DNA from: Mycobacteroides abscessus ATCC 19977
Lineage (GTDB): Bacteria; Actinomycetota; Actinomycetes; Mycobacteriales; Mycobacteriaceae
DNA length: 64,000 nucleotides
Direction of reading: 5' to 3'
Assembly: GCF_000069185.1 (NCBI RefSeq)
Contig: NC_010397.1
Coordinates: 186,001 to 250,000 of the forward strand
Below are positions 41,683 through 46,164 of this stretch, piece by piece. Position 1 is the first letter of the stretch, and each line of letters opens with the position of its first letter. The notes beneath the pieces were generated by a model, which was not told the DNA's origin, ran no database searches, and worked only from the letters and a program-made list of their open reading frames with translations. The translations under genes and the position numbers were made by a program.

Positions 41683-43566
41683 CTACGCCTTCGGGCCACC
41701 GCTTTCCGCCAGGCGCCGTACCGCGTCGATGAACACGTCGATCTCGTCGAAGGTGTTGTAGAACGCGAACGACGGCCGCACCGTCTGCTCCAGGCCCAGC
41801 CGACGCAGGATCGGCTGCGCGCAGTGGTGTCCGGCGCGCACCGCGATGCCATCGGCGTTCAGGGCCTTCCCGACTTCCACCGGATCATGCCCGTCGAGCA
41901 CGAACGACAGCACGGATGCCTTGTGATCTGCCGTGCCCACCAGCGTCACGCCCGGGATTGCGGCCAACCGCGGTGTCGCGTATTCCAGTAGCGCGTGCTC
42001 GTATTCGGCGATCCTGTCGATGCCGATCCGCTCCACGTACCGCAGTGCTTCACCCAGTCCGACAGCATCGGCGATGTTGCCGGTGCCCGCCTCGAACTTG
42101 TTCGGCGGGCCCTGGAACACCGCACGCTGTAGGGTGACGTCCGCGATCATGTTGCCGCCGCCTTGCCACGGTGGCGTCTCGGCGAGTGCGTCTTCGCTGC
42201 CATAGAGCACGCCGATTCCGGTGGGGCCGTAGATCTTATGGCCCGAGAAGACGAAGAAGTCGGCGCCGAGCTCCTGCAGGTTGACCGCCAGATGCGGCAC
42301 CGACTGTGCGCCGTCGATGAGCACACGTGCGCCATATCGGTGTGCGATCTCGACGATCTGCTTGGCAGGGGTCACCGTTCCCAACGCGTTGGAAACCTGA
42401 GTGGCCGCAACTAGTTTGGTGCGTGGTCCAACCAGATCCTCCAGCTCGGAGAGCAGCAGGTTGCCGGCATCGTCCACCGGGGCCACCTTGATCACGGCGC
42501 CGGTCTTTTGCGCAATCAGTTGCCACGGAACGATATTGGCGTGGTGTTCCAGGTGGGTAATGACGATCTCGTCGCCGTGCCCCAGGTTCTTGCCGCCCCA
42601 GGCATAGGCCACCAGATTGATGGCCTCGGTGGCGCCGCGCACGAAGATGATGTTCTCGTCCGCTTCGGCACCCAGGAACTTGCGGGCCGCTCCGCGTGCG
42701 TCCTCGTACGCGTCGGTGGCGCGTGCCGCCAACTCATGTGCGGCGCGGTGGATGTTCGAGTTCTCATGCTGGTAGAAGTGCACCAGCCGGTCGATCACGG
42801 ACTGGGGCTTCTGCGTGGTGGCGGCGTTGTCGAACCAGATCAGAGGCTTGCCATTGACGGTCTCGGACAGGATGGGGAAGTCCGCCCGGATGGCGGTGAC
42901 GTCGAAGGCACGTGCGTCCTCGTGGGTGGGTGCCGCGGCCGGAGCACCACCCAGGAAGTAGTAGTTCGCCTCGTCACCAGCCCGGTCACCACCGCTGGGC
43001 GCGGCTGGGGGAGCCCATCCCAGATCCGGTACCGACAACCCCTCCGAATACGGAGCGGTCCGCGGCGATGCTGTGACCGGGGCCGTGGCCGGGCTCGCCA
43101 ACACGCCCGGGATTGTTGGCACCAGTCCGGAGGGGACGGCGAAATCTGCGAGACCCGTTGTCGGATAGCCCGTTGCGGCGGTGTGTGCCGCAGATGTCCC
43201 CGAGCTCAGATCGCCGCCACCACCGCGCGGAGCTACCGGCACGGCACCGGGAATGCCATCGGGTGTGGCCGAGCTGAAGGCTGCTACCGGCGGGGCCACC
43301 GTAGCCGTCGACAGCGCATCGGCCAGCGGAGCAGGGACATATGGGCTGGCCCACGAACCCGTGGTGGCTGCCGCGGAGGAACCCGCCGTCGCGTCCGGCA
43401 CGGTGCCCCGGGGCGCGACGGGAACCGCCGGTCCCGGGGTGTCGATACCAGGCGCTCCGGAAGGTGTTGCCTCCCAGAACAGCTGAGTGGCCAGTGCGGC
43501 CAGCTCGGCCGACGACGGGAATCCCGGCGGGCTGTCCGCTACTGGAATCTCATCACTTGTAGGCAT
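41683..43566 (-). CDS. Cysteine desulfurase cargo of family 2A encapsulin (SufS-type)
   Basis: This 627-residue protein has a normal SufS-type cysteine desulfurase in its C-terminal 410 residues: PLP lysine Lys444 in FSGHKIYGP and catalytic Cys582 in RAGHHCAQPI. It releases sulfur from cysteine. The N-terminal 210 residues are a low-complexity Ala/Pro/Gly/Thr extension with a twice-repeated AVPVAPRG motif. Such disordered extensions are known to target the enzyme into family 2A encapsulin shells. The start (ATG 43566) overlaps the shell gene by 14 bases, so the two are translationally coupled. It ends by convergence with the cupin gene. Confidence 0.92.
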   Translation of the reverse strand: MPTSDEIPVADSPPGFPSSAELAALATQLFWEATPSGAPGIDTPGPAVPVAPRGTVPDATAGSSAAATTGSWASPYVPAPLADALSTATVAPPVAAFSSATPDGIPGAVPVAPRGGGGDLSSGTSAAHTAATGYPTTGLADFAVPSGLVPTIPGVLASPATAPVTASPRTAPYSEGLSVPDLGWAPPAAPSGGDRAGDEANYYFLGGAPAAAPTHEDARAFDVTAIRADFPILSETVNGKPLIWFDNAATTQKPQSVIDRLVHFYQHENSNIHRAAHELAARATDAYEDARGAARKFLGAEADENIIFVRGATEAINLVAYAWGGKNLGHGDEIVITHLEHHANIVPWQLIAQKTGAVIKVAPVDDAGNLLLSELEDLVGPRTKLVAATQVSNALGTVTPAKQIVEIAHRYGARVLIDGAQSVPHLAVNLQELGADFFVFSGHKIYGPTGIGVLYGSEDALAETPPWQGGGNMIADVTLQRAVFQGPPNKFEAGTGNIADAVGLGEALRYVERIGIDRIAEYEHALLEYATPRLAAIPGVTLVGTADHKASVLSFVLDGHDPVEVGKALNADGIAVRAGHHCAQPILRRLGLEQTVRPSFAFYNTFDEIDVFIDAVRRLAESGGPKA

Positions 43567-44476
43567 GGAACTTGTCCACCTGCACGTCGTCGAGAACGGC
43601 CAGTGCGTCATCGGTCAGCACAGCCAGCGACGAATACAGGGTGACGAGGTACGAGGCGATGGCCGATCGGTTGATACCGGTGAAACGGACCGACAGACCC
43701 GGCGCCTGCTCGCCGACCAGACCGGGCTGGAACAGGCCGACGACGCCCTGACGCTCCTCGCCCGTGCGCACCAGCAGGAACTTGGTCTTGGCGTCCTTCA
43801 CGGGAACCTTGTCCGAGGGGATGATCGGGATGCCGCGCCAGGTGATGAACTGGGCGCCGAACAGGCTCACCACCACCGGGGGCACGCCGCGGCGGGTGGC
43901 CTCACGGCCGAACGCGGCCACACCCAGCGGGTGGGTCAGGAAGAAACCGGGTGTCTTCCAGACCTTGGTGATCAGGGCATCCAGGTCGTCCGGGGTGGGA
44001 GGGCCACCGAGCGTCTTGATGGTCTGCTCCGGGGTCGCCTGGGCCAGCAGGCCGTATTCGGCGTTGTTGATGAGTTCGTTTTCCTGACGTTCCTTGATGG
44101 ACTCGATGGTCAGGCGCAGCTGTTGGGCGATCTGGTCGTGCGGGCTGGAGTACAGGTCAGAGACCCGGGTGTTGATATCCAGCAGGGTCGAGATGGTCCG
44201 CAGCGTGTATTCGCGCGGGTTGGTCTCGTAGTCGACGTAGGTCTGCGGCAGCGGGGCCTCGCCCTCACCCTGCTCCTCGCTGTGGATCGCGACCTTGTCG
44301 GGGTTGATCACACGGTTGACGCGGTAGATGCCCGCTTCGACGGGAACCCAGTTCAGCAAATGCAGCAGCCACCGCGGGGTGATCGTCGACAGCTGGGGAA
44401 CTGTCTTGGTGGCATTGGCTAGCTGCCGTGCAGCGAGATCGCCGAGGGCCTGAGATTCGTTCTGGGCAGCGGGCAC
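43553..44476 (-). CDS. Family 2A encapsulin shell protein (SrpI/MMP-I type)
   Basis: A 307-residue shell protein of the HK97-fold encapsulin family 2A, related to cyanobacterial SrpI and the major membrane protein I of M. leprae. Recognisable segments are TPRWLLHLLNWVPVEAGIYR, PREYTLRTISTLLDINTRV, GVPPVVVSLFGAQFITWRG and the C-terminal GINRSAIASYLVTLYSSLA. It assembles into a protein nanocompartment around the desulfurase and may aid sulfur storage or protect the enzyme. GTG 44476 has AGGAGG nine bases upstream. It diverges from the polycysteine leader ORF. Confidence 0.93.
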   Translation of the reverse strand: MPAAQNESQALGDLAARQLANATKTVPQLSTITPRWLLHLLNWVPVEAGIYRVNRVINPDKVAIHSEEQGEGEAPLPQTYVDYETNPREYTLRTISTLLDINTRVSDLYSSPHDQIAQQLRLTIESIKERQENELINNAEYGLLAQATPEQTIKTLGGPPTPDDLDALITKVWKTPGFFLTHPLGVAAFGREATRRGVPPVVVSLFGAQFITWRGIPIIPSDKVPVKDAKTKFLLVRTGEERQGVVGLFQPGLVGEQAPGLSVRFTGINRSAIASYLVTLYSSLAVLTDDALAVLDDVQVDKFHAYK

Positions 44477-44520
44477 AGCAGTTTCCTCCTCAGCGACGGG
44501 TTCAAGAACTGATGGCTGAA

Positions 44521-44526
44521 ATCCTA
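44521..44526 (-). promoter_or_regulatory. Possible -10 of the encapsulin operon
   Basis: TAGGAT on the minus strand (44526 down to 44521) would start transcription about 40 bases before the shell start codon. No good -35 is visible. A weak prediction. Confidence 0.25.
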
Positions 44527-44593
44527 ATGGCGATCACCGCATCGCATCAGGTAACTAACACCCATGCGCCAAACTCGCCCGGCCCGTTTTCAC

Positions 44594-44652
44594 CGACACG
44601 CCGCCTCATGGCGGGTGCGTACCGCACGTGTCCGCCGAAAGGCGGCGTGTCG
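44594..44652. promoter_or_regulatory. Inverted repeat between encapsulin and leader ORF
   Basis: CGACACGCCGCC (44594-44605) pairs with GGCGGCGTGTCG (44641-44652), perfect over 12 bp with a 35-nt loop. Inside it GTGCG and CGCAC around TAC form a small second hairpin. It sits between two divergent promoters, so it may be a regulator site or an insulating structure rather than a normal terminator. Confidence 0.45.
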
Positions 44653-44683
44653 AAGGAGACATGGCCGAGTGCTCGGACGTACG

Positions 44684-44697
44684 TAGACTGAATGGCA
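44684..44697 (+). promoter_or_regulatory. -10 box for leaderless transcription of the polycysteine ORF
   Basis: TAGACT (44684-44689) lies seven bases before the A of ATG 44697, the spacing seen for mycobacterial leaderless mRNAs that begin with the start codon. Confidence 0.5.
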
Positions 44698-44798
44698 TGC
44701 AGCACGTCGCACCGTCGCACCGACTCCGGGCGATCCACGCGCTGCGCGCCGACACCACCGGGGCGCGCAGCGCTTCCGTGTGTTGCTGTTGTTGTTGA
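44697..44798 (+). CDS. Polycysteine leader peptide (candidate cysteine-responsive attenuator)
   Basis: A 33-codon ORF, apparently leaderless, ends in Ser-Val followed by five consecutive Cys and then TGA. The Cys codons are TGT TGC TGT TGT TGT; TGT is disfavoured in this GC-rich genome, so the run looks selected. Leaderless ORFs ending in cysteine tracts have been described in mycobacteria as sensors of cysteine supply: ribosomes stalled at the Cys run change folding of the mRNA and release the downstream ribosome site. The downstream gene starts 94 bases later at 44893. The neighbouring divergent operon encodes an encapsulated cysteine desulfurase, which fits cysteine regulation of this locus. 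Confidence 0.8.
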   Translation: MQHVAPSHRLRAIHALRADTTGARSASVCCCCC

Positions 44799-44892
44799 TT
44801 CCCTAACCCCGCCCCTAGCATCCCGGCTCACCGTTTTTCGACGGTATCGAGTTATTGGGCTGCATTCCGCCGGCACAAGGATCAACCAAACC
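44799..44892 (+). promoter_or_regulatory. Attenuator region after the polycysteine ORF
   Basis: This 94-base leader holds a pyrimidine-rich stretch (CCCTAACCCCGCCCCT, from 44801), a small hairpin ACCGT/ACGGT (44830-44834 with 44841-44845) and an AAGGA ribosome-site-like word 11 bases before the ATG at 44893. Alternative pairing between pyrimidine and purine-rich parts could hide the ribosome site; I could not fold it. Confidence 0.4.
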
Positions 44893-46164
44893 ATGACCAC
44901 TCATTCTTTGCTATCGCTCGTCGAATGGCCGTCGGCCCGCATCACGGGCAGCCGTCGCCGCTCGAACGCCGAGGTGTTGCCGCGCCGTTTGACGAGGTAC
45001 CGCGGCGGCACCTATTCGTCCACTGTGGACGAGGTTGTGTTCACCGACGGAACTTCTGCTCGCACAGATTTAATTCGCCTGAACCCGACGATCACCGCGT
45101 ACTCGCTCGATATCGCCGGGATCGCCCCCAACCTGCCGTCCGGCTACGCGGTGGCGGATTGGCTGTCGGTGGCCAACCTGCGGGCACGCACCCGCGAATC
45201 GCAGGTGGCCTGGATCTTGGCCAACTCCTTTCCGGCGCTCTCCACGGCGCGGCTGAGCCGCCGGCTGCGCGCGGCCGGATATCTGGGTGAGGCCAACATC
45301 AAGGACCACGAGGCGATCGCCGGAACCCAGGCGGCCATCTGGTTCCTCACCAACGGGGTGGAGCTGGATACCGCAGCACGCAATGTGCCGACGGCAACGC
45401 GAAAGTCGCCGTCGTTCATCGAGTTTGAATTCCCGGAGCGGCCACAGTTGGGCGGCTTGACGATCCGCACCGGCGTGGGGCAGCAGCCAGCGGATGTCCG
45501 GCTGCACGCGTCCGTGAACGGTGCCGTGTGGCGTGAGGTCTCCTCCTCGGAGCTGAGCTTGTCGGCTGGTGCCGCACAGTACGCCAAGGTATTGGGTGTG
45601 GGTGCGACGGTCGCCGAAACCCAGTACGGCGCACCGGATCGCGGCTACCGGTTCTATCGCCTTTACGTGCAGGGTGGCACTGCCGACGTTGAGACCGTCG
45701 AGTTCTGGTTGCATGACGCGCGCAACCACCGCAACGCCGACCGTGTCGTTCAGCTGTACCGGTACCTGCTGGAGCAGTCGCTACTCGCCGCCGGTCAGGC
45801 GGAACACGCGCCCACCATCGATGACTCGCAGGCGGTGATGGCCGCGGGCCTGATGGGGCCGTTCGTGGTGGACTCGCAGCGTCCCGTGGTGCTTTCGCTC
45901 TCCGAGGGCGCCAAGGCGATGGACATTTCCGGGGCTGAGCTCTCCGGTCCGGTGGATCCGGGCACCCGCTTCTATGTACGCCCCGCGGAGTGCGTTGCGA
46001 CGGTGACGGTCTCGGTGGTCGATCTGGCCGCGACGGCTCGGGTGCTCACCGGGGTGGCTGACGGGCCGTTGACCCCCTTGGCGCTGGTACATCCCGGTGC
46101 ACATGACGTCGTGGAATTGACGGTCGAATGGGCCCCGGCCGCGGAACTGTCGCGGGTGAGCTAG
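44893..46164 (+). CDS. Thioester-domain-like protein lacking the thioester cysteine
   Basis: A 423-residue protein. Residues 40-160 resemble a thioester (TED/TQXA) domain: the motif AGTQAAIWFLTNG carries Gln146. At the position of the partner Cys (usually aYCID) it has AYSLD, Ser71, so the internal thioester cannot form. No signal peptide is apparent. Residues 180-330 look beta-rich (galactose-binding-like) and a beta-sandwich follows to the C-terminus. Only one Cys is in the whole protein. The gene follows the polycysteine leader, and its stop codon shares CTAG with that of the convergent hisC2. Confidence 0.7.
   Translation: MTTHSLLSLVEWPSARITGSRRRSNAEVLPRRLTRYRGGTYSSTVDEVVFTDGTSARTDLIRLNPTITAYSLDIAGIAPNLPSGYAVADWLSVANLRARTRESQVAWILANSFPALSTARLSRRLRAAGYLGEANIKDHEAIAGTQAAIWFLTNGVELDTAARNVPTATRKSPSFIEFEFPERPQLGGLTIRTGVGQQPADVRLHASVNGAVWREVSSSELSLSAGAAQYAKVLGVGATVAETQYGAPDRGYRFYRLYVQGGTADVETVEFWLHDARNHRNADRVVQLYRYLLEQSLLAAGQAEHAPTIDDSQAVMAAGLMGPFVVDSQRPVVLSLSEGAKAMDISGAELSGPVDPGTRFYVRPAECVATVTVSVVDLAATARVLTGVADGPLTPLALVHPGAHDVVELTVEWAPAAELSRVS

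Follow-up and report, generated by a model that had tools for sequence, protein, structure and literature searches.

Why should a short open reading frame with a string of cysteine codons at its 3′ end stand ahead of a TED-like gene, back to back with an encapsulin and its cysteine desulfurase cargo? The segment in question (44697-44798) is most likely a cysteine-sensing leader which would control the TED-like gene by translational attenuation. We give this reading a probability of about 0.85; the stalling of the ribosome, the response to cysteine and the direction of control are deduced from sequence and folding models. All positions refer to the window, that is, the whole 64,000-nt stretch of Mycobacteroides abscessus ATCC 19977 DNA that was analysed.

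Layout of the locus

The leader, its putative control elements and the neighbouring genes are arranged as follows.

41683-43566, minus strand: encapsulin cargo cysteine desulfurase with a long N-terminal extension (NF041166, 836 bits, cut-off 800)
43553-44476, minus strand: family 2A encapsulin shell protein (NF041162, 503.2 bits, cut-off 380)
44684-44689, plus strand: putative -10 element TAGACT of a leaderless promoter, 7 nt 5′ of the ATG of the upstream ORF (uORF), from sequence
44697-44798, plus strand: leaderless-type polycysteine uORF, 33 codons and TGA, from sequence and conservation over loci
44781-44795, plus strand: Cys-codon run TGT TGC TGT TGT TGT, the proposed stalling tract, from sequence
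44794-44801, plus strand: 5′ arm of a predicted helix sequestering the ribosome binding site, formed by the last two nucleotides of the last Cys codon, the stop codon and the next 3 nt (minimum-energy fold)
44877-44881, plus strand: putative Shine-Dalgarno sequence AAGGA of the TED-like gene, 11 nt before its ATG, from sequence
44879-44886, plus strand: 3′ arm of the predicted helix, covering the GGA of the Shine-Dalgarno sequence (minimum-energy fold)
44893-46164, plus strand: TED/TQXA-fold protein of 423 aa with Ser at the thioester Cys position (TIGR03934, 55.6 bits; PF08341, 39.9 bits)

The original prediction had described a 33-codon ORF with five terminal Cys codons, four of them TGT, and a TGA stop, all of which are present. 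The encoded peptide is MQHVAPSHRLRAIHALRADTTGARSASVCCCCC, and searches of NCBIfam and Pfam with this short ORF matched zero families. The leaderless-type promoter sequence claimed for it is also found: TAGACT lies 7 nt before the ATG, and a TANNNT element precedes the uORF start in each of the 44 leaders counted below, at a distance of 6 nt in 25 and 7 nt in 19. From the spacing of the -10 element we infer a leaderless start of the M. abscessus uORF. A gap of 94 nt separates the end of the uORF from the start of the TED-like gene. A longer frame for this gene, from 44692 (490 aa), was rejected, as the frame in a related locus (L012) is open only from 3 nt before the equivalent start. Two matches in an Rfam scan of 44400-45000 were likewise rejected (18.6 against a gathering score of 84, and 17.2 against 178).

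The leader was also said to be divergent from an encapsulated cysteine desulfurase. The system does lie on the opposite strand; the nearest divergent gene is that of the shell, and the desulfurase comes after the shell. A desulfurase start at 43566 would overlap the end of the shell gene (43553-43566), which suggests coupled translation.

Conservation of the cysteine run and its published relatives

A short Cys run alone is weak evidence, because three Cys codons followed by TRR occur at 82 sites in the genome against 58 for the control pattern. This abundance is what favours a chance run of TGY codons ahead of a constitutively expressed gene. Longer runs are scarce: five Cys codons followed by TRR occur at two sites in the 5.09 Mb genome and the reversed control pattern at 0. 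Among the 82 three-Cys sites, 31 end in a true stop, and inspection of each of these 31 showed just 2 in which TANNNT precedes a start codon by 5-8 nt; the scarcity of such leaderless-type starts argues against chance.

The comparison with relatives carries more weight. The locus scan covered 53 loci (L010-L062), of which 44 (L010-L053) were counted. The excluded loci (L054-L062) comprise those of other genera with their second pieces, a locus whose TED protein has no encapsulin beside it (L058) and two in which tblastn gave no TED match (L057, L059). All 44 counted loci have a leaderless-type uORF whose last eight codons include three or more Cys, and a divergent encapsulin shell match on the opposite side; as these loci are mutually related, neither the counts nor the p-values over them are independent. 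A further TED-encapsulin locus, L161 of genome G073, has a uORF ending in CCCR. Thus, in 45 of 45 mycobacterial TED-encapsulin loci examined, the TED gene stands behind a leaderless-type Cys-tailed uORF. Nowhere among them is the run lost while the downstream gene is kept, the reverse of the outcome that the original prediction had named as a refutation. At the level of sequence this conservation settles that the run is no chance event, and it leaves a chance origin with a negligible probability. In three more distant genera the upstream Cys ORF is weak, with two Cys at the very end (G292, G139), or was not found (G452), so these genomes are not counted as leader carriers.

Codon choice adds a second line of evidence. 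TGT had been called unusual here, and 25 long high-GC3 stop-to-stop frames of the window indeed use 17 TGT against 72 TGC (89 Cys codons). The ratio is reversed in the 44 uORFs, with 192 TGT and 53 TGC (245 Cys codons). Part of this shift may be due to pairing of the predicted helix, because the stop codon and the last two nucleotides of the Cys run belong to the helix.

Could the peptide itself act in trans, for example as a small Cys-rich metal or redox protein? Conservation of the Cys tail would agree with such a role, as would translation of the ORF, provided that the ribosome protection reported in PMC4974804 refers to 44697-44798. Against this, the peptides beyond the Cys tail diverge widely by clade, ranging from 21 to 33 residues and beginning MQHVA..., MQQAVQL... 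or MSNITLP..., and the skewed choice of Cys codons is what a sensor at the RNA level would show. We consider a function in trans very improbable. The attenuation leader remains our preferred reading, and the segment has the form by which attenuators are recognised, a short ORF with contiguous Cys codons before a downstream gene.

In the M. smegmatis loci of Canestrari from 2020, a ribosome on the Cys run is said to undo an RNA pairing that otherwise hides the downstream ribosome binding site. A counterpart of the M. abscessus leader may be among these loci. Polycysteine ORFs of M. smegmatis are described as controlling downstream translation via cysteine-dependent attenuation (cited in PMC9031893), and translation attenuation is also stated for polycysteine leaderless ORFs in PMC13236596. 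Leaderless Cys-rich uORFs are reported ahead of cysA2, Rv0485 and nirA in M. smegmatis and M. tuberculosis (Shell 2015, PMC4633059). Like the ORFs described there, the M. abscessus leader is a short leaderless-type ORF that precedes a gene and has its Cys codons grouped near the end; what sets it apart from the cysA2, Rv0485 and nirA leaders of that report is its downstream gene, which is TED-like and divergently oriented to a 2A encapsulin. The original prediction had already likened the ORF to the mycobacterial cysteine-responsive attenuators, and this remains the best-supported reading.

The M. abscessus leader is probably in part already in print. A ribosome-protected uORF ahead of MAB_0219, called a TQXA-domain protein, was reported in 2016 (PMC4974804). 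Because that report names a TQXA-domain protein and the genome has one TQXA gene, we take the gene at 44893-46164 to be MAB_0219, and the reported uORF is probably the ORF at 44697-44798. The relevant section of PMC4974804 gives no sequence for a comparison, and the words ‘cysteine’ and ‘encapsulin’ are absent from its main text. The leader would be a further, partly already reported, mycobacterial polycysteine attenuator.

One other leaderless-type Cys-run ORF, VLARLEPMLTKRRAVDLCRVAGCCCCCC, was found in the genome (L002, genome C2 near 742,800, minus strand). The operon behind it encodes a membrane protein and a sulfurtransferase-like protein, the latter being, as we take it from its sequence, CysA2. 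This ORF is probably a known cysA2-type leader and probably also the uORF of MAB_0741, a gene included in the uORF list of PMC4974804.

Predicted pairing and the proposed switch

The proposed mechanism would comprise two alternative states. Transcription would start at or beside the ATG of the uORF, and a ribosome would translate from the 5′ end. With ample Cys-tRNA, the ribosome would pass through and depart, and the TED-like gene, its Shine-Dalgarno region paired with the stretch around the stop codon, would be poorly translated. With scarce Cys-tRNA, the ribosome would halt on the Cys run and its footprint would mask the stop-codon stretch, so that the Shine-Dalgarno sequence opens and the TED-like protein is made. 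The setting would most likely be a response to cysteine shortage, the TED-like protein acting alongside the compartment formed by the 2A encapsulin and the cysteine desulfurase.

In many leaders GUUGAUUUCCUGA or a variant spans the uORF stop and a near-complement, UCAGGAAGAUCAAC, lies in the Shine-Dalgarno region of the TED gene; in a second clade the arms are UUUUCUGA and CAGAAA. Split by their Shine-Dalgarno sequences, the 44 loci form clades A (20 loci), B (15) and M (9, including M. abscessus).

The predicted energy needed to open the Shine-Dalgarno sequence has a median over the 44 loci of 5.75 kcal/mol in the free leader. With a footprint on the first, third or last Cys codon, the predicted median falls to 3.03, 2.53 or 2.49 kcal/mol, and the loci that gain more than 1 kcal/mol in this way number 29, 33 and 34 of the 44, respectively. 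Control footprints gave such a drop in 7 (upstream) and 20 (downstream) of 44. It speaks against the attenuator that 10 of 44 loci lack a drop of more than 1 kcal/mol with the footprint on the last Cys codon. When the 16 nt after the stop were shuffled, the median drop shrank from 3.39 to 0.63, and 38 of the 44 natural leaders gave the larger value. As a partner of the Shine-Dalgarno sequence, the stop region ranks in the top three in only 15 of 44 loci, a count in which the start of L048 is misassigned.

The two arms were also compared between loci. Mean arm pairing is -12.79 kcal/mol within the same locus against -11.20 kcal/mol between different loci (permutation p 5e-5, relatedness ignored), and permutation within clades gives no signal (p 0.29). 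Exchange of arms yields -8.62 for the A 5′ arm with the B Shine-Dalgarno sequence and -12.70 for the B 5′ arm with that of A, the matched B pair having -12.15. Since the signal within clades is absent and the swap is harmful in one direction only, the co-change of the arms is a matter of few ancient steps.

In M. abscessus itself the effect of the helix hiding the Shine-Dalgarno sequence is, by these models, modest. As the block is shifted from the start to the end of the Cys run, the opening energy drops from 5.7 to 2.3, then to 1.2 and then stands at 1.9, with two controls at 5.7 and 5.0. The duplex alone is unremarkable (z -0.9, stronger in 43 of 143 other windows compared), and shuffled leaders keep a drop of 2.80 against the natural 3.82.

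Control might instead act on transcription, a stalled or missing ribosome setting whether RNA polymerase stops in the leader by intrinsic or Rho-dependent termination. A published comparison in which the RNA level of MAB_0219 differs (PMC13340314) would suit such a mechanism, and this change is not predicted by a purely translational switch by itself. One weak terminator-like stem followed by a TGT tract is present at 44767-44786, although shuffled sequences yield 0.4 such sites (sd 0.9) and this one falls within the uORF, its tail being the Cys run. The influence that the 16 nt past the stop have on Shine-Dalgarno access fits translational control better, and we regard control by termination as unlikely.

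The same comparison carries a hint on physiology. In Table 2 of PMC13340314, the complemented strain is the reference for two log2 RNA values of MAB_0219, -4.07 for the wild type and -0.49 for the sigH mutant; the one other MAB_0219 cell is misprinted, and the comparisons of this table do not seem consistent in sign. The pattern recurs there in an alkanesulfonate monooxygenase and five sulfonate/sulfate ABC transporter genes (-3.78 to -4.68 and -0.18 to 0.47). It is shared by some genes with no evident link to sulfur, an amino acid permease and an acyl-CoA dehydrogenase among them. These entries hint that MAB_0219 belongs to a sulfur-status group at the RNA level and are no proof of leader action.

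The TED-like protein and the encapsulin compartment

What would the leader control? The downstream gene had been described as of unknown role. This holds only in part: profiles recognise a TED/TQXA-fold protein, here lacking the thioester Cys. Like the thioester-domain adhesins (TIE/TEP proteins) described in PMC4450167, the protein has the TED fold and the TQxA helix motif; unlike them, it carries a Ser where the thioester Cys would be, a discoidin/CBM32-like part (residues 162-278) and, judged by eye, no export signal, signal peptide or anchor. The replacement by Ser is found at 44 of 44 loci (41 by pattern, 3 by reading), and the [YFL]C thioester motif which defines TED proteins is absent from the mycobacterial protein; two TED proteins from other genera have YC at this position. 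Cys and Met are few in the TED-like proteins of mycobacterial encapsulin loci. An ester bond formed by the Ser was considered and dropped, as a conserved partner Gln was not found: judging by the 18-row alignment A1 alone, there is no invariant or near-invariant Gln besides that of the TQ motif. A profile of A1 gave 0 matches to PDB sequences.

The TED-like gene and the 2A encapsulin co-occur in the genus, as judged from genome sequences, and physical contact is no part of this claim. Among 98 sampled genomes of the genus, 34 have TED-like genes and 32 a 2A encapsulin, 31 of them above the cut-off and one (G076) below it in two pieces, its shell gene being split at the counted locus L038. Both genes are present in 32 genomes, encapsulin alone in 0 and TED pieces only in 2. 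The original prediction suggested that the locus is linked to cysteine or sulfur status. The tie to the encapsulin is stronger than that prediction could show, with a TED gene in 32 of 32 encapsulin genomes, but the leader precedes the TED gene and not the encapsulin and desulfurase genes on the opposite strand.

At an E-value of 1e-20, TED-like matches fell in the own genus only in the order-wide (13 of 397 genomes) and class-wide (8 of 394) samples. The family sample has matches in 21 of 401 genomes, including three closer relatives from other genera and three weak matches. Absences in the family, order and class samples are soft, because the best 4 candidates per genome were scored. In the three closer relatives (G292, G139 and G452), an encapsulin match lies in the same locus as the TED-like gene. 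Three loci from other genera of the family (L054, L055 and L056) have Ser-type TED-like genes near 2A encapsulins, with a weak Cys tail or none upstream.

A family 2A encapsulin with a cysteine desulfurase cargo, SrpI of S. elongatus, is reported to be raised under sulfur starvation (PMC8049743). The M. abscessus locus has the same shell and cargo families as the system described there; unlike it, the mycobacterial locus adds a Cys leader and a TED-like gene on the opposite strand. PMC8049743 also lists a family 2A encapsulin for M. smegmatis mc2 155. In the openly licensed literature we found no joint report of an encapsulin with a TQXA or thioester domain and nothing relevant on MSMEG_4536-4538 or the ribulon. 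Measured against that literature, the newer part of these results appears to be the close association, as seen in the genomes, between a 2A encapsulin and a TED-fold protein of the Ser-for-Cys type.

A tentative extension, to which we give slightly less than even odds, is that the mycobacterial compartment of 2A encapsulin and desulfurase has a dedicated third component. This would be a cytosolic, thioester-Cys-less, Cys- and Met-poor TED-fold protein, induced through the polycysteine leader when cysteine runs out, and hence a starvation-side partner. Its role would be, for example, shell gating, restraint of the desulfurase or release of stored sulfur. If the TED-like protein is such a cysteine-starvation-induced partner of the encapsulin, it offers a handle on the purpose and timing of the desulfurase compartment. 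It would also explain why a TED protein without its thioester Cys is retained beside the encapsulin in 32 of 98 sampled genomes of the genus, G075 included.

Single genomes provide further observations. G070 (73% complete, short contig) has TED pieces only. G089, a genome of 3.2 Mb, is left with TED fragments, 41 residues of the encapsulin and an ORF that ends in Cys (L158), remnants which look as if one unit had decayed jointly. G075, whose genome is of M. leprae size, has retained the TED gene, the uORF, the shell and the desulfurase.
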